63,117 bases of DNA, taken from contig CACNFD010000012.1 of assembly GCA_902619615.1 (NCBI GenBank), positions 1 through 63,117 on the forward strand. The letters are read 5' to 3'. A program made the position numbers and the translations under genes. Below, piece after piece: positions 51,477 to 63,117 of the stretch (positions are counted from its first letter, which is position 1; each line of letters starts with the position of its first letter). Below the pieces are notes generated by a model. That model saw only the letters and a program-made list of their open reading frames with translations, was not told the DNA's origin and ran no database searches. This DNA comes from an uncultured SAR116 cluster alpha proteobacterium (GTDB lineage Bacteria; Pseudomonadota; Alphaproteobacteria; Puniceispirillales; Marisalimonadaceae).

Positions 51477-51509
51477 ATGTTTTCCTACGAAATTAATTTG
51501 GAGATTAAT

Positions 51510-54401
51510 ATGCCAACAGTAAATTCCAATACTGCAGCTCAGTTTGCACTAAATAAAATGACTGCTACTGAGCGAGAAATGACGACTGCAATGGAACGTC
51601 TGTCATCTGGTAAGCGTATAAATCATGCTGGAGATGATGCTGCTGGTGCAGCTATTGCTGATAGAATGACTGCTCAAATTAAAGGTCTAGAACAATCAGT
51701 AAGAAATGCAGCTGATGTAATCTCTATGGCACAAGTAACTGAGGGTGCACTGGATGAATCTTCAGCAATTATTCAAAGAATCCGTGAGTTAGCTATACAG
51801 TCAGCTTCGGACGTAATGAATGCAGAAGAACGTTCTTATCTTGATGCTGAGGTAGTTCAAATGTTGGCAGAACTAGACCGTGTAACAAGAGATACTACCT
51901 TTAATGAAATAGCAGTTTTAGATGGTTCATTTGCAGATAGGCGTTTTCAAATTGGTACACATGAGAGAGAATTTGCTCAGCTTTCAATTTCATCAATGAG
52001 ATTAGATAGCCTCGGCGCTTATAAAGCTAAATCAGATACAACCGACACAGATGGAAAAAACGATAATTTAGCTTTAAATGCTTACGCAGTTGACACAACA
52101 TCTGAAACTAATCTTATACAATCAGAATCTTTTACAATACACGGAATTTTGGGTAGTTCTTCAGTTACTACTGCTGCTGGATCTACAGTAAGGGACATAG
52201 CTACATCAGTTAATGCCGTTTTTGATGCAACTGGTGTAACTGCTATTGCATCAACGCAATTAAAATTAGAAGCAAAATCATTGGACGATACTTATAATGG
52301 ACAAACAAGCATATCATTTAGTATTCAAGGTAAAAACACAGTAGCAACTACTATTGCAGCTAATATAATATTAAATGATAATAAGGGGAGCTCTGTATTA
52401 TCAGAATTAAGAGATTCCATTAATAATTACACAACTGCAACTGGTGTTACAGCAACCTTATCTACTGATAAATCTTCAATTATTATGGTTCAAAATGAAG
52501 GTTATGATATTAAACTTGGTGACGTTAACTTTGATGGAGATACGGACGCAACAGGAGCAAGAAGAACTTTACTAGTAACAAGTCTTGATAATGACGAAGT
52601 TGCTGCAGGTAATGCTGTAAGTTTAGGTGATACTCATGTTACTGCAACAGACGATGATGGTTTGTTTTCAGGAACGATAACAACAACCAATACAGTAATT
52701 GGCGCAACTCCTACTGAAACATCTTTAACTGTTACAGGGTCAACCACTGTTAGAGGTGCAGAATCAACTTACAACAACTCTGGTGGAACATTAGGTACTA
52801 GCGCTGTAACTTCAATACCGCTTGCGTCTACCACAGGTTTTCCTACCGCAGGAGGAACAATTAAAATTGGTTCAGAATATTTCACATATACAGGTGTAAG
52901 TGGAAATAATCTAACAGGTGTAACCAGGGCTAAAGAAGCTAGTACTGCTGCAAATCATGCACATGGCGCTTCTGTATTTTTAGTTATTGGAAGTGGGGAC
53001 ACCATGTCTGGTTCAGGAACAATAACTGTAGAAGACACTTCAGCATTTGACTCTGTTGGTGCAATTAAAATTGGTGATGAGCTTTTTACATACACAGGTA
53101 AAACAGGAACAACTTTTACTGGGGTTTCCAGAGCGACAAGTGCTACAACAGCTGCAAAACATGATAGAAATACTGGCATTTCTCAAGCAACAGACCCAAC
53201 GGCTACAACCTTTAATGTCGCAAGTACAACTGGTTTTCCTGAAGCTGGTACATTATTAATTGGATCAGAATATGTGACTTATACTGGTGTAACTGCAACA
53301 TCTTTTACTGGTGTAACCAGAGGAGTAACACTTGACACACTTACCTCAACTGCTGCAAGTCATGCAAATGGTAAATCAATAAAAGATATGTCCTCAAGAT
53401 TTACATTAAATGGACCTGTTTCACTAGCTACTGATGATAATAAGGTTTGTAGTGAACAAGCTATTTCATCTGGTTTTACCGGTACTGAAAGTCTAGCTAT
53501 GGTGGATGCAACAGCTACCCTTAATTCATTTATTACAATTACATCGACAGCAGCATCAAGTGCAAATTTTGTAATAACTGGAACTGACGTCTATGGAAAT
53601 GCACAATCAGAAACAATAAATGGTCACACAGGGAGTACATATCCAAAAACATTAACCTCTACAAAAATTTATGGAACAGTTACTAGTGTAAAACCTTCAG
53701 CAACAGATAGTGATGCAAAAATTAGAGTTGGCGTTAAAAACACAATAGCTAATGAATCTATATTAGTAACAATTACAAGTTCTGCTAGTGATGAGTCAGC
53801 TAAAACATTTACAGTTGTAGGAACTGGAATGGATGGCACTTCCCTCACAGAAGTAATAACAGGACCTGAAGCTAATAAAACTGTAACTGGCAGACGTATC
53901 TTTAAAACAATTCATACAATTACACCATCTGATACAACTACTGGTGCGATAAAAATTGGGGTTAAAGGCGCTGACTCTGTCATAGTAACTGGTCAACTTG
54001 AGATGTCTTCTAGTAATAGTTTTACTGTTGTTGGTGAAGATGGAAAGGGATTATTTGAAACTTCACCAGGAGCTGCTTCATTAGATAAATTGTCAGGTGT
54101 AAATGTTAAAACAAGACAAGCATCTGTAGATGCACTTAGGGTATTAGATAGATCATTAGACAGAATACATAAAGAGAGAGCAAAACTTGGCGCTTTAATG
54201 AGTAGAATGGAAAAAGCAATAGATAATTTATCAAATGTTGCTTTAAACACAAATGCCTCAAGAGGTAGAATTGAAGACGCTGATTTTGCAAAAGAATCTG
54301 CAAGGTTAACTAAAGCCCAAATTCTTCAGCAATCAGCTATGGCAATGATTGCACAAGCAGGAAAAGCGCAACAAAATGTTTTACAATTATTGCAACAGTA
54401 A
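51510..54401 (+). CDS. Giant flagellin (963 residues) with phage-like internal repeats
   Basis: Filament protein. The N-terminal D0/D1 part is classic (MPTVNSNTAAQFALNKMTAT, ERLSSGKRINHAGDDAAGAA, IIQRIRELAIQSASD, FNEIAVLDGSFADRRFQIG), as is the C-terminal part (RAKLGALMSRMEKAIDNL, RIEDADFAKESARLTKAQIL, AQQNVLQLLQQ). In between, about 700 residues replace the usual small D2/D3 domain. They include three copies of a GSEYFTYTG-type module and two copies of an FTVVGTGMDG-type module, both resembling phage virion repeats. Start at ATG 51510 with TTGGAGA upstream. A sigma-54 promoter and a strong terminator flank it. Probably the main regulated flagellin. Confidence 0.93.
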   Translation: MPTVNSNTAAQFALNKMTATEREMTTAMERLSSGKRINHAGDDAAGAAIADRMTAQIKGLEQSVRNAADVISMAQVTEGALDESSAIIQRIRELAIQSASDVMNAEERSYLDAEVVQMLAELDRVTRDTTFNEIAVLDGSFADRRFQIGTHEREFAQLSISSMRLDSLGAYKAKSDTTDTDGKNDNLALNAYAVDTTSETNLIQSESFTIHGILGSSSVTTAAGSTVRDIATSVNAVFDATGVTAIASTQLKLEAKSLDDTYNGQTSISFSIQGKNTVATTIAANIILNDNKGSSVLSELRDSINNYTTATGVTATLSTDKSSIIMVQNEGYDIKLGDVNFDGDTDATGARRTLLVTSLDNDEVAAGNAVSLGDTHVTATDDDGLFSGTITTTNTVIGATPTETSLTVTGSTTVRGAESTYNNSGGTLGTSAVTSIPLASTTGFPTAGGTIKIGSEYFTYTGVSGNNLTGVTRAKEASTAANHAHGASVFLVIGSGDTMSGSGTITVEDTSAFDSVGAIKIGDELFTYTGKTGTTFTGVSRATSATTAAKHDRNTGISQATDPTATTFNVASTTGFPEAGTLLIGSEYVTYTGVTATSFTGVTRGVTLDTLTSTAASHANGKSIKDMSSRFTLNGPVSLATDDNKVCSEQAISSGFTGTESLAMVDATATLNSFITITSTAASSANFVITGTDVYGNAQSETINGHTGSTYPKTLTSTKIYGTVTSVKPSATDSDAKIRVGVKNTIANESILVTITSSASDESAKTFTVVGTGMDGTSLTEVITGPEANKTVTGRRIFKTIHTITPSDTTTGAIKIGVKGADSVIVTGQLEMSSSNSFTVVGEDGKGLFETSPGAASLDKLSGVNVKTRQASVDALRVLDRSLDRIHKERAKLGALMSRMEKAIDNLSNVALNTNASRGRIEDADFAKESARLTKAQILQQSAMAMIAQAGKAQQNVLQLLQQ
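52812..53385 (+). repeat. Three tandem-like ~55-residue modules in flagellin (IGSEYxTYTG family)
   Basis: Three related protein modules are encoded at about 52812-52980, 53019-53181 and 53203-53385. Each runs: TTGF or SAF, then IKIGSEYFTYTG (or IGDELFTYTG, IGSEYVTYTG), then a TxFTGVTR or LTGVTR motif, then a T-A-A-x-H sequence. They recall modules in tail and virion proteins of marine phages. DNA identity among copies is low, so this is an old protein-level repeat. Confidence 0.85.
53523..53969 (+). repeat. Two ~70-residue modules in flagellin (FTVxGTDxxGNAQxE family)
   Basis: Copies at about 53523-53742 and 53757-53969. Each has an ITITS-like strand, FVITGTDVYGNAQSE or FTVVGTGMDGTSLTE, a T-x-T-x-x-x-I-(Y/F)-x-T-(V/I) strand, and ends in KIRVGVK or KIGVKG. 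The same module occurs twice in FliD at 61505-61941. I recall the same pattern in phage structural proteins. Confidence 0.85.
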
Positions 54402-54661: not shown

Positions 54662-55552
54662 GTGAATAATTTAAATTACTTAGAGTCTGAAGCTATTCAT
54701 ATTATTCGTGAAATGGTTTCAGAGAGTGAAAACCCAGTTATACTTTACTCTATTGGTAAGGATAGCACTGTAATGTTACACTTAATTAAGAAAGCATTTT
54801 ATCCCTCTTTTCCTCCATTTCCATTATTGCATATTGATACTACATGGAAGTTTAAAGAAATGTATAAGTTCCGTGATAAGATAGCCAAAGATGTAAATAT
54901 GGATTTAATTGTGTATCAAAACCCCGAGGCAAAGAAAAAAGGTATTAACCCATTTGATCATGGTACTCTTCATACAGATTTATGGAAAACAGAGGGGCTT
55001 AAGCAGGCCTTAAATAAGTATAATTTTGATTCTGCTCTTATTGGTGCTCGCCGAGATGAGGAAAAATCACGGGCAAAAGAGCGTGTGTTTTCTTTCCGGT
55101 CACAACAGCATAATTGGGATTCAAAAAAACAACGTCCTGAACTTTGGTCACTTTACAACACAAGAAAATCCAAAGGTGAAAGTATTCGTGTTTTTCCTTT
55201 GTCAAATTGGACTGAGTTAGATATCTGGCAATATATTTACCAAGAGAATATAGAGATTGTATCACTTTACTTTGCTGCATTGAGGCCAACAATAAAACGG
55301 AATGGATTAATTCTTATGGTAGATGATAATCGTCTTCCATTAAAATCAGATGAAAAGCCTGAATTGCGTTCTATCCGTTTTCGTACTTTAGGTTGTTACC
55401 CTCTTACAGGGGCTATTTTATCTGAAGCTTCTACATTGAAAGAAGTAATTCAAGAAATGCTTTTAACCATAACTTCTGAACGTCAAGGACGCATTATTGA
55501 CAAGGACCATGGTGCCTCAATGGAAATGAAAAAAACACAAGGCTATTTTTAA
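54662..55552 (+). CDS. cysD: Sulfate adenylyltransferase subunit 2
   Basis: Catalytic subunit of ATP sulfurylase, making adenosine phosphosulfate from sulfate and ATP. The 296-residue protein shows the PP-loop [12 protein letters not shown] (residues 29-39), [58 protein letters not shown], and the C-terminal [12 protein letters not shown] and [10 protein letters not shown]. Start is a GTG overlapped by a short reading frame, with a poor ribosome binding site. CGT, CGG and CGC arginine codons are frequent here, whereas neighbours use AGA, suggesting transfer. cysNC follows by 11 bases. Confidence 0.95.
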
Positions 55553-55563
55553 TTTGGTGAGTA

Positions 55564-57462
55564 ATGAAATTAAAATCCAATAAAAAGAATATAATCGCCA
55601 ATGATATTGATGGCTACCTTAAAACACATCAAAATAAATCTTTATTACGATTTATAACTTGTGGCTCTGTAGATGATGGAAAATCAACACTCATTGGACG
55701 TTTACTTTATGACAGCAAAATGATATTCGAAGATCAATTGGCACAACTTAAGATAGATAGTAAAAAGTCAGGAACACAAGGAAAAAAAATTGATTTTGCT
55801 CTTCTTGTAGATGGTCTTGAAGCAGAAAGACAACAGGGAATAACCATTGATGTTGCTTATCGTTTTTTTTCAACAGAAAAACGTAAATTTATTGTAGCAG
55901 ATACACCAGGACATGAACAATATACTCGAAACATGGTTACTGGAGCCTCAGACTCTCAACTTGCAGTAATTCTTATCGATGCCCAAAAAGGTGTTTTAAC
56001 TCAGACACGTCGTCATAGTTATTTATGCCATTTACTTGGTATTAAACACATTGTTTTAGCTGTTAATAAGATGGATTTAGTTAGTTATGATCAAACAATC
56101 TTTAATTCTATTATAAGCAATTATGAAACATTTGCTGACACAATTGGGATTAAAAACTTTGAAAGCATTCCAATTTCTGGGCTCAATGGAGATAATATAA
56201 CAACAAGGTCCACAAATACTAAATGGTATAAAGGTCCAACTTTGTTAAATCATCTTGAAGATTTAAATATTAAACCAGAAAAAAGTGAAAGTACTAGTTT
56301 CTTTATGCCTGTGCAATGGGTCAATCGACCCAATCAAGATTTCCGTGGCTTTAGTGGAAGGATAGCATCTGGGATTGTTAAACCAGGTCAAAAAGTACGT
56401 ATATTTCCTTCTAATAAAACAAGCGTTATAGATCGTATTGTTACGCTTGAGAGTGACCTAGATCATGCAATTTTAAATCAATCTGTTACTATAACATTAA
56501 AAGATGAAATTGATTGCTCTCGCGGTCAAATTATTGCATCTGAGGATTCACTTATACAATCTGCAGATCAGTTTGAAACCTTACTTATTTGGATGGATGA
56601 GAGTTCTCTGATACCCAACCGCTCATATTATTTTAAAATTGGGACTGAAACTGTCTTAGCTTTCATTTCAAAAATAAAGTTCAAAGTAAATATAAACACA
56701 ATGGAAAAAATTGCAGCACAAACGTTAGAGTTAAATGAAATTGGAGTTGCTAATTTGACAACTGATCGATCAATTCCATTCATGCCATTTAAGGAAAATA
56801 AAACACTAGGTAGCTTTATTTTAATTGATAAGATGACTAATGCCACTGTTGCAGGAGGCATGATTAACTTTTCTCTAAACCGTGCCAGCAATCTTCACTG
56901 GCAAAAAATGGATGTGACACGTGAACATAGAGCAAAACTAAAAGATCAAAAACCAGTTGTTGTTTGGATGACTGGGCTTTCTGGTTCAGGAAAATCAACT
57001 ATAGCAAATGCTCTTGAAAAAAAACTACTACAAATGAATTTCCATACATTTATATTGGATGGTGACAATATACGCCTAGGACTTAACAAAGACCTTGGTT
57101 TCTCAGATGCTGATCGGGTAGAAAATATTCGCCGTGTCGGTCATGTTGCTAAACTGATGACAGATGCAGGCCTTATAGTCATTGTGGCCTTTATATCACC
57201 TTTTCGGTCTGATCGTGATTTAGTAAAAAAGATGATAGACAAGAAAGAATTTGTTGAAGTATTTATAGATACTCCTCTTTCTGTTGCAGAAGATCGAGAT
57301 GTAAAGGGTCTCTATGCCAAGGCTCGGTCTGGCAAACTAAAAAATTTTACTGGCATTGACAGCCCTTATGAAACTCCAGAAAATCCAGACATACATATTA
57401 AAACAAAGAGTCAAAGCATTGATGAGTCTGTTAACGCAATTCTAAAAAAAATTATAAATTAA
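55564..57462 (+). CDS. cysNC: Bifunctional sulfate adenylyltransferase subunit 1 / APS kinase (CysN-CysC fusion)
   Basis: Partner of CysD. In the 632-residue protein the N-terminal GTPase has G1 GSVDDGKS (34-41), [24 protein letters not shown] (113-121) and NKMD, followed by EF-Tu-like barrels (to about 440). The CysC kinase half has P-loop GLSGSGKST (471-479), [21 protein letters not shown], and [14 protein letters not shown]. Product is PAPS, the sulfate donor for reduction or sulfation. No cysH, cysIJ or sulfotransferase is in the window. Arginine codon use matches cysD and differs from the flanks. Confidence 0.95.
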
Positions 57463-61080: not shown

Positions 61081-63117
61081 TTAATCATCCTTATTCATAG
61101 CTTCGAATAAATTAGTTAAATATTCTCCTGTTGATTTTAAACTTGTTACTGCCTGTTCCATACTTGTAAATTGTTGAATATATCTATCCCTTAGAGAATC
61201 CATCTGAGAATTTAAATCTACGAGTAAAGCTGACTGATCAGTTACTTCTTTGTTAATTGTTGTTTCTCGAGTTGATAATTGGCCACTAGATGTATTAAGT
61301 GTGTCAGTTAAAAAAGTAGTTAGCTTTTCAATAAGACTCTGACCATAATATATAGTTGCATCTGATCCTAATCCAGAATATTTAACTTTTAATCCTGCTG
61401 CATTTCCTGATGAAATAGTAAAAGTTTGGTTCGTGATATCAGCAACCATTGCTACCCCGTCTAATGTTGCTGATCCTGTAACTCCACTTGTTGTAATACC
61501 TGCACCTGTAACTCCGATTGTAACCGATCCTGAGGTATTGGCAGAAGGCGTAATCGAAGATATTGTTTTAAAAGTCTTACTCCCCAAAACTGTTGCATTC
61601 GCAGCTGGTCCTGTTATCACCTCGGTTTGTGCATTTCCAGACATATCTGTTCCCACAACAGTAAAGGTTTTATTACTTTCGTCACTTCCTGAACTTACAA
61701 TTGAAGGTCTTTTACCGGCAAGATCTACAAAGGCAGATTTGGATCCAATATTTACACCAGCAGCTGCTCCATTTGATGCAATTTGAGTAATTTTTTTAAA
61801 TATTTTTGAACTAGTCACGCTACTTCCCGCAGCTGGTCCTGTTATTATTTCCTCTTGCGCATTTCCATCAATATCAGTTCCTGTTACAGTAAAGGATACT
61901 GATGATAGATTGTTTGAACTTGAGATAGTAACAAATGAATTTAGATTTGATACACTACCAGAACTTGTTTGATCACCATCTAAGGCAAGATTTCCAGAAC
62001 TTAAAAGAGTTTCGTTATCAACTAATCCGTCAGTATCAGTTGCTGTTACAAGCGCCCCATTAATTATTAAGGCTGTACTTGCTGTTCCAGATTGCGAAGT
62101 GCCTATCCCGTCAGGATCCGATGTTCCTTCAAATTTTAGAAATCCATCTAAATTACTACCTATAGAGTTTATAACCATTGAAGAAGACGTACCTGTAGAA
62201 CTCGATTTAATTAAATAACTACCATTTGAGTGAGTTACTACAACTGATTTGCCCGCAGATGTTAGAGTACTATCTGCATTTATAGCAGTTTGAATTGCTG
62301 TTGCTAATGCAGCCTCCGATGTATAATGTGCCGCAGGTACCGTTACTGAACCTGATTGTGTTCCGTCTACAGTTACTTGTATAGTGTTATTTGATGCAGT
62401 TACCTCAGGTGAAGTATCACTGCTCTTCAAACCTGTAAATGCTCCTGAGACATAAGCTGTCATGCTAAATGCGTAAGATCCAGCTGTTGGAGAAGAACTT
62501 GTTGAACCACTGACACTTAAGAGACTTGAGGTTGACGAATACATTGAATTAAATATAGCGTCTAATGAAGTAGGATTGTTTTTTAATTCTGTCTCTAAAA
62601 TACTAGTATTAAGACTTAACAAACCATTTTTTTCAGTTCTAACCCCTAAGTTCGACAAATATATTCCACTTGCCCCAAATCCTGACAATTGCGTAGATGT
62701 AAGTGAATTTAATTGTGAGTTTATACTTTTTATTACTGGATCATCAGACAAATCCCCAGCTTTTTGGGTTGATGAACCTCGGAAAGTTTTATCGTTTAAT
62801 AATGTTCTTGCGTCATTTACTGCACTTACAAAAGATTGCAAATTTGTTTTAGCAGCAGTTGTATCTACAGAACCTGTTAATATTGCGGGTGTGTCAGTGC
62901 CATTTATTGTTGTCGATGAAAGTAAATTTACATTATAACCAGTGAATAGATCTGTGATGGAATTAGAAGACCTAGTAAGAGATATTCCATCTACTGTAAA
63001 AGCGGCATCTGTTCCTGCCATCTTTTGTTTTGATGCATTTGTTGTCGTATTGTCTATACTTGATAGGCCAGATCCAGAGGGACTTTCAGTAGCTGTAACC
63101 CTTATTGCATTTTCTTT
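61081..63117 (-). CDS. fliD: Flagellar filament cap protein FliD (5'-truncated by window edge)
   Basis: Cap that promotes flagellin assembly. The frame is open to the window end, so the N-terminal ~50-100 residues are missing and 678 are visible; an ATG at 63021 is internal. FliD traits are AGTDAAFTVDGISLTRSSN, ITDLFTGYNVNLLS and a C-terminal domain with LTTFLTDTLNTSSGQLSTR and LRDRYIQQFTSMEQAVTSLK. At 678+ residues it is longer than usual (about 450-650). The middle carries two copies of the phage-like module shared with the 963-residue flagellin. Confidence 0.92.
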   Translation of the reverse strand, partial: KENAIRVTATESPSGSGLSSIDNTTTNASKQKMAGTDAAFTVDGISLTRSSNSITDLFTGYNVNLLSSTTINGTDTPAILTGSVDTTAAKTNLQSFVSAVNDARTLLNDKTFRGSSTQKAGDLSDDPVIKSINSQLNSLTSTQLSGFGASGIYLSNLGVRTEKNGLLSLNTSILETELKNNPTSLDAIFNSMYSSTSSLLSVSGSTSSSPTAGSYAFSMTAYVSGAFTGLKSSDTSPEVTASNNTIQVTVDGTQSGSVTVPAAHYTSEAALATAIQTAINADSTLTSAGKSVVVTHSNGSYLIKSSSTGTSSSMVINSIGSNLDGFLKFEGTSDPDGIGTSQSGTASTALIINGALVTATDTDGLVDNETLLSSGNLALDGDQTSSGSVSNLNSFVTISSSNNLSSVSFTVTGTDIDGNAQEEIITGPAAGSSVTSSKIFKKITQIASNGAAAGVNIGSKSAFVDLAGKRPSIVSSGSDESNKTFTVVGTDMSGNAQTEVITGPAANATVLGSKTFKTISSITPSANTSGSVTIGVTGAGITTSGVTGSATLDGVAMVADITNQTFTISSGNAAGLKVKYSGLGSDATIYYGQSLIEKLTTFLTDTLNTSSGQLSTRETTINKEVTDQSALLVDLNSQMDSLRDRYIQQFTSMEQAVTSLKSTGEYLTNLFEAMNKDD
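61505..61941 (-). repeat. Two ~70-residue modules in FliD (FTVxGTDxxGNAQxE family)
   Basis: Copies at about 61735-61941 and 61505-61707 encode FTVTGTDIDGNAQEEIITGP with a following SSKIFKKIT strand, and FTVVGTDMSGNAQTEVITGP with GSKTFKTIS. These are closely similar to the two modules in the flagellin at 53523-53969, including the preceding NSFVTISS/NSFITITS strand. Confidence 0.88.

Follow-up and report, generated by a model that had tools for sequence, protein, structure and literature searches.

The DNA analysed here, referred to as the window, is a stretch of 63,117 nucleotides from an uncultured alphaproteobacterium of the SAR116 cluster (assembly GCA_902619615.1, contig CACNFD010000012.1), which encodes a fliC-type flagellin (flagellin A) and the filament cap protein FliD, two axial flagellar proteins that share a homologous repeat module (Table 1). 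The module had been noticed in an earlier inspection of the letters alone (the sequence-only reading), which gave flagellin A 963 residues; this size agrees with a start at MPTVNS, while an upstream ATG yields 974 amino acids (aa). FliD is truncated: its open reading frame (ORF, 61081-63021, minus strand) stays open up to the contig end at 63117, and FliD_N, which lies outside the window's part of the protein, was detected in the ortholog L109. In the following, G000 denotes the genome of the window, C25 one of its contigs, and f1, f2 and f4 families of its order.

Flagellin A and FliD each contain two copies of the module. A profile built only from the two FliD copies scores the flagellin A copies at 32.5 and 79.2 bits, whereas 1000 shuffled versions of the flagellin middle reach at most 7.4 bits. 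Identity to the first copy is 36-41% among the four copies, with 12 invariant columns; 20 columns are invariant in a wider alignment of 36 module sequences, and the second copies of flagellin and FliD are 67.7% identical at the DNA level over 164 base pairs (bp). These regions are rich in Ser, Thr and Gly, a composition that might by itself make Ser/Thr-rich beta segments look alike, through chance or low complexity. This explanation is refuted by the shuffle control and is also contradicted by the retained DNA identity and the invariant columns of the 36 sequences, which leaves it virtually no probability. The copies thus align better than random beta-rich Ser/Thr segments, and the claim of a shared module holds. 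The module core comprises about 70 residues; as judged from the profile of a viral protein introduced below, the first-copy unit is longer (about 105 aa) and the second copy represents a shortened version, and this tandem layout of a long followed by a short unit is common to flagellin and FliD. The flanking strand NSF(I/V)TI, which the sequence-only reading had assigned to all copies, is present in the first copy of each gene, but the second copies read LVTI and RPSI.

Table 1. Flagellar genes and module-related features of the window, together with the FlgK gene of the same genome.
Feature	Position	Strand	Evidence or remark
Flagellin A (fliC-type)	51477..54401	+	Flagellin_N 1.1e-37 and Flagellin_C 3e-25 at the two ends
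Flagellin_IN motif within flagellin A	52128..52271	+	PF07196, E 2.6e-7
Segment of TGFP-type repeats common to flagellin A and FlgK	52713..53371	+	659 bp, phage-like
First unit of flagellin A, full length (~105 aa)	53424..53750	+	profile of the viral ~210-aa protein; limits from the match on ortholog L095, transferred to the window via its 7-residue longer ORF
Module copy 1 core, flagellin A	53523..53741	+	alignment, profile scores
Module copy 2 core, flagellin A	53763..53969	+	alignment, profile scores
FliD (filament cap), N-terminus lost at contig end	61081..63117	-	FliD_C 6.3e-33
First unit of FliD, full length	61735..62049	-	core 61735-61941
Module copy 2 core, FliD	61504..61713	-	alignment
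Flagellin B, 1026 aa	57732..60812	-	no module match in the window's copy
Flagellin C, 703 aa	48169..50280	-	no module match
FlgK (HAP1), 2474 aa from ATG	G000:C25:3766-11190 (L137)		FlgK_D1 2.3e-44, Flg_bbr_C 3.2e-11, Flg_bb_rod 2e-4

No convincing match to the module was found in Pfam, PHROGs, NCBIfam or the sequences of the PDB. Single members gave isolated hits: one of 32 in PHROGs (phrog_8198, 6e-4), one of 36 in NCBIfam (0.006), and one of 32 in each of two Pfam families (0.002 and 0.008); FG-GAP appeared at 4e-4 in one viral protein, under the FG-GAP cut-off. Module profiles returned no PDB sequence at E 1 in one search and a best E of 0.18 in another. Structures were predicted for the flagellin pair and for the viral protein. 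The flagellin pair is predicted to be all-beta, with a mean predicted local distance difference test score (pLDDT) of 81, ranging from 76 to 94 per ten residues inside the modules; the viral protein model reached a pLDDT of 91 and a predicted template modelling score of 0.86. The same four predicted viral proteins (A0A1B1IUY1, A0A6J5RIF5, A0A6J5SGB7 and A0A516LPE7) lead the list of structural matches for both models. At the level of sequence comparison, the module is uncatalogued and of viral type.

Carriers of the module and its viral counterpart

Among the contigs of the same genome, further module matches are confined to one other ORF, which lies on C25 and encodes FlgK. This protein contains nine module stretches, seven full and two partial, and its gene neighbours resemble flgL, flgI, flgH, flgG and flgF (named by sequence alone); the flgL-like ORF beside it gave no module match. 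The sequence-only reading was therefore too narrow in speaking of flagellin and cap: both do carry the module, but FlgK holds most copies, and the second flagellin has some in relatives. In a collection of carrier rows gathered by the module itself and classed by end motifs, which is not a prevalence and counts two genes twice, it was present in 21 of 21 flagellin A, 23 of 23 FliD, 12 of 12 FlgK, 10 of 18 flagellin B and 0 of 1 flagellin C rows. The FlgK rows have 7-9 stretches each (two in one row cut by a contig end), and flagellin B rows of some relatives have 2-3 copies. In FliD, two different insertion sites occur: the usual one splits the FliD_C match, whereas in L111 the module sits at aa 181-240, between FliD_N and FliD_C.

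Within the order, the module is nearly restricted to one SAR116 family. Matches were obtained in 48 of 136 genomes, namely 47 of family f1 and a single genome, G135, of f2. FliD_C was detected in 71 of the 136; all 37 of these that belong to f1 have the module somewhere, compared with one (again G135) of the 34 elsewhere. G135 also encodes an ordinary FliD of 547 aa on a different contig, and a mixed bin or a transfer are possible explanations of this exception. SAR116 appears in the title of 34 of the 43 module-found loci in named genomes. In 42 of the 43, the protein that contains the module has the ends of a flagellin, a FliD or a FlgK, as classed by scripted end motifs and, for a few, by Pfam; the remaining locus, L130, has the module in a two-partner-secretion protein. 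Wider samples, in which the flagellated status of the genomes was not established, gave matches in 4 of 385 genomes of the class (one being the genome of the window; the others L209, L210 and a 227-aa frame) and in 2 of 398 of the phylum (the same genome and a 9496-aa frame, a 1068-aa piece of which had no Pfam match). None of these four matches outside the order was recognised as flagellar, the 227-aa frame not being among those inspected. In L209 (718-2640), a protein of another alphaproteobacterium, the module is fused to a BNR/sialidase-like region, and in L210 (1243-1944) it is part of a 233-aa protein adjoining an ORF that looks capsid-like by eye, possibly in a prophage.

The module also has a viral form, which constitutes the N-terminal part of a protein of about 210 aa encoded downstream of the major capsid gene. 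At least 124 viral relatives were found among 600 candidate stretches, and the best 80 of them (IMG/VR loci L014-L093) were analysed further. All 80 contain the module, in 71 cases within an ORF of 195-240 aa, and none of the module ORFs has the flagellin, FliD or FlgK core motifs that were looked for. A capsid-protein-like ORF, called with a profile made from the capsid proteins of L023 and L065 (themselves identified through PHROG head-protein families), is present on the same strand in 58 of the 80 loci, where it invariably lies upstream of the module ORF, at a distance of 95-1721 bp; of the 22 other loci, 21 have the start of the module ORF within 1.5 kb of the locus end. Residues ~17-125 of the viral protein profile align with the first unit in flagellin, FliD and FlgK, with best domain E values of about 1e-26 on FlgK and 4e-23 on FliD. 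Most FliD second copies match the profile up to position 160-173 of 208, and some end at 126-127, with no match beyond. The N-terminal ~105 aa of the viral protein are thus homologous to the flagellar unit, whereas its mostly single copy, a C-terminal half that appears to be its own and its site in a head gene cluster set it apart. Isolate phages yielded one match, Pelagibacter phage HTVC023P (E 2e-3 for a FliD copy and 9e-6 for the viral protein as query), whose annotated capsid gene lies two genes ahead of the matching ORF (gp42, hypothetical protein); the flagellin pair matched no isolate phage, and a search of plasmids with the module gave no match. The earlier notion of a mobile module gains from this occurrence in a viral structural cluster, downstream of the capsid gene. 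Further viral ORFs with a weak or second module-like stretch are L035:4441-5214, which belongs to phrog_8198, L031:1660-2400 and L033:3562-4518.

Copy tree and the neighbouring flagellin/FlgK segment

The relationships of the copies were examined in a careful tree of 106 of 207 copies, which supersedes a quick tree of all 207 rows; among the 101 omitted rows are the flagellin B rows, left out as long branches with the exception of those of L098 and L101, and loci excluded because of their size. Node supports are given as paired values. The last copies of flagellin form one clade (99/93), and the FliD copies nearly do, although the viral row L087 is placed within the FliD clade. Of the ten viral copies, nine fall into a clade of their own (99/90), separate from the bacterial copies. 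FliD first copies join FlgK copy 4 of L124, L125 and L127 (99/98, with one viral row inside), and the flagellin first copy of L128 joins FlgK copy 4 of three other genomes, namely that of the window, G003 and G035 (100/97). In the approximately unbiased (AU) test, a single clade was rejected for all flagellin A (p = 0.036), all FliD (p = 0.029) and all FlgK copies (p = 0.0017), which agrees with the prediction of copying between genes; it was not rejected for FliD last copies (0.42) or viral rows (0.46). The intermixing of copies that the sequence-only reading had proposed to look for is thus partial: the clades are largely gene-specific, but strict gene-wise clades fail the AU test. Since the clades are mostly gene-specific, the sharing between flagellin and FliD is old, with the copies mostly inherited afterwards.

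Recent gene-to-gene copying is found in the adjacent segment, between flagellin and FlgK only; the copying proposed in the sequence-only reading is in this respect supported for another pair of genes. Over its 659 bp, the flagellin segment aligns to FlgK of the same genome (G000:C25:8384-9042) without gaps at 86.3% identity, and across five genomes the identity between flagellin and FlgK is 84-92%. The segment is present in these five FlgK and was not found at such identity in six others, whose best local match amounts to 37-69 identities over up to 220 residues; the gap at the segment position was inspected directly in the FlgK of G035 and L125. G003 has flagellin and FlgK on one contig with an identical run of 157 bp, and most 60-bp windows of this pair are 93-100% identical, interrupted by islands of 67-85%; among the other flagellin-FlgK pairs, identical runs reach 65 bp at most. 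Exchange between two axial genes is visible here as identical tracts. The segment also resembles marine phage proteins (43.5-51.3% identity, with PHROG baseplate/virion families), among them a cyanophage protein and Pelagibacter phage tail tube B (51%, E 2e-6).

Flagellin A itself is a mosaic. Compared with the flagellin of G031, the window's protein is 73-83% identical at aa 1-90, 91-100% at aa 91-390, 54-71% at aa 421-600 and 89-99% at aa 601-960; if the segment first passed from flagellin to FlgK (see below), the diverging alleles of G031 and G019 would have arisen when alleles of flagellin were exchanged.

Probable origin and spread, and putative role

We consider it probable that the ancestor of a single SAR116 family acquired a phage-virion-type beta-sandwich module in the variable outer parts of its axial flagellar proteins, and that copying from gene to gene distributed the module over flagellin A, flagellin B, FliD and FlgK. 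The acquisition would have run from phage to bacterium, and gene conversion would be the simplest mechanism of the spread, with homologous recombination as another candidate. Flagellin, FliD and FlgK are located along the outside of the filament or at its ends. Because of this, and because the inserts sit between conserved protein ends (in FliD at two sites), the most likely putative function is an outer coat that shaft, tip and hook-filament joint have in common, facing the outside world. Such a coat might serve in contact with particles or glycans, or in escape from flagellum-binding phages and grazers. A bolder and rather doubtful extension is that the axial genes form one recombining pool in which phage-virion-derived modules are swapped by gene conversion, giving a matched, changeable coat that plausibly acts against flagellum-binding phages or in particle attachment; if true, the whole filament would wear a coat that was formerly part of a virus particle.

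Several observations weigh against acquisition from phage followed by copying between the genes. The trees are unrooted, so that the direction from phage to bacterium is inferred. For the module itself, no recent exchange between flagellin and FliD was found, DNA identity being 68-84% over short stretches, and a single clade was not rejected for FlgK copy 4 (p 0.20) or for flagellin first copies (p 0.21); exchange of the module at the single position of FlgK copy 4 is therefore suggestive on the tree, yet not significant. The node at which FlgK copy 5 joins the flagellin and FliD last copies (93/91, inside 81/72) is not decisive. In structural terms, the flagellin pair matches the four leading viral models at template modelling scores of 0.41-0.59 by its own length, and the PDB matches of the models are jelly rolls (such as CBM6, viral capsids and a phage cement protein) with Z about 5-7.5, all below 8. 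The CBM6/galactose-binding-like jelly roll is level with many unrelated jelly rolls, and this likeness of the models may merely reflect a common arrangement. As to the neighbouring segment, the 157-bp run comes from one draft genome, where a chimeric assembly of repeats is possible, although the segment is common to five genomes and the sharing itself thus stands apart from such a chimera. In a tree of the block, the five flagellin rows all lie on one side of a branch (93/98). Together with the absence of the segment from six other FlgK, this disfavours a first reading in which the flagellin block was converted from FlgK; flagellin to FlgK would be the simpler first step, followed by later conversion in G003, and we leave the direction open.

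Three other histories have to be weighed. The module is abundant in viral contigs, the copies in flagellin and FliD are old, and the unusual site in the L111 FliD could mark a separate event, all of which would fit an independent capture from phages by flagellin, FliD and FlgK with little copying among them. We nevertheless regard this parallel capture as unlikely, since the viral copies, with one exception, stand apart from the bacterial ones, since flagellin and FliD have the same tandem layout, since their last copies group with FlgK copy 5 without viral rows, and since direct copying between genes is visible in the neighbouring segment. Somewhat less probable still is a flow in the opposite direction, in which phages acquired the domain from bacterial surface proteins. 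The absence of a root and the module in secreted-looking, non-flagellar bacterial proteins (L130, L209) are compatible with it, but the viral module is mostly single-copy and occupies one genomic place downstream of the capsid gene, and the flagellar copies are nearly limited to one family of the order.

Least probable of the three, and in our view improbable altogether, is old shared ancestry, in which an inner domain would have been kept, without any mobility, since the axial proteins diverged. A precedent exists in Flagellin_IN (PF07196), an inner domain that flagellin A, FlgK and FliD of a single genome have in common, e.g., in G003 (ORFs of 990, 2470 and 882 aa). For the module, such a history is contradicted by the 33 of 34 FliD-bearing sister-family genomes that lack a match, by the non-flagellar character of those matches outside the order that were inspected, by its variable copy number and position, and by its patchy presence in flagellin B. 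Flagellin_IN also differs from the module in sequence and in its site in the window's flagellin, and none of 32 module copies matches PF07196 at 0.01. Further families of the order have Flagellin_IN, as do the control genomes of E. coli, B. subtilis and T. maritima, whereas the module is nearly confined to one family. The same precedent makes the earlier statement that sharing of a surface domain between filament and cap is not known from other flagella too strong.

Giant flagellins of marine bacteria are long and have large outer regions; we know of none that share them with cap and FlgK. Capture of foreign domains into the exposed flagellin middle, as in flagellinolysin, has been described for 61 putative domain families of the hypervariable region, the table of which includes Flagellin_IN, DUF3383 and Sialidase (PMC5595980). 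The likeness to the present case is evident, but here one module is found in flagellins, cap and FlgK, with an adjacent segment copied between flagellin and FlgK; in the portion of that article considered here, 'FliD' and 'hook-associated' have 0 occurrences (PMC5595980). A published report of this combination was not found in the open-licence literature on SAR116 flagellin and motility, shared domains, gene conversion and Flagellin_IN. Variation of the flagellin surface is usually viewed one gene at a time. That shaft, cap and hook-filament joint carry one uncatalogued module of viral type offers the testable idea that the entire exposed filament evolves its surface jointly, and would provide a tangible example of how structural parts of virions are put to new use on an appendage of ocean bacteria.

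Outside the family, two FliD-like ORFs of 1169 and 1267 aa in the sister family f4 (L223 and L224) show weak local matches to a flagellin middle, which may mean that outer sequence is shared more widely in the order. A comparison of stretches from four genomes of sister families, restricted to pairs with different rough labels and not a survey, gave two weak FliD-flagellin matches (E 3e-8 between genomes and 1.5e-7 within one), possibly due to Flagellin_IN. The window itself encodes three large flagellins (703, 974 and 1026 aa), and two ORFs at 54662-57462, between two of the flagellin genes, resemble CysD and CysN/C, which we take to function in sulfate assimilation.

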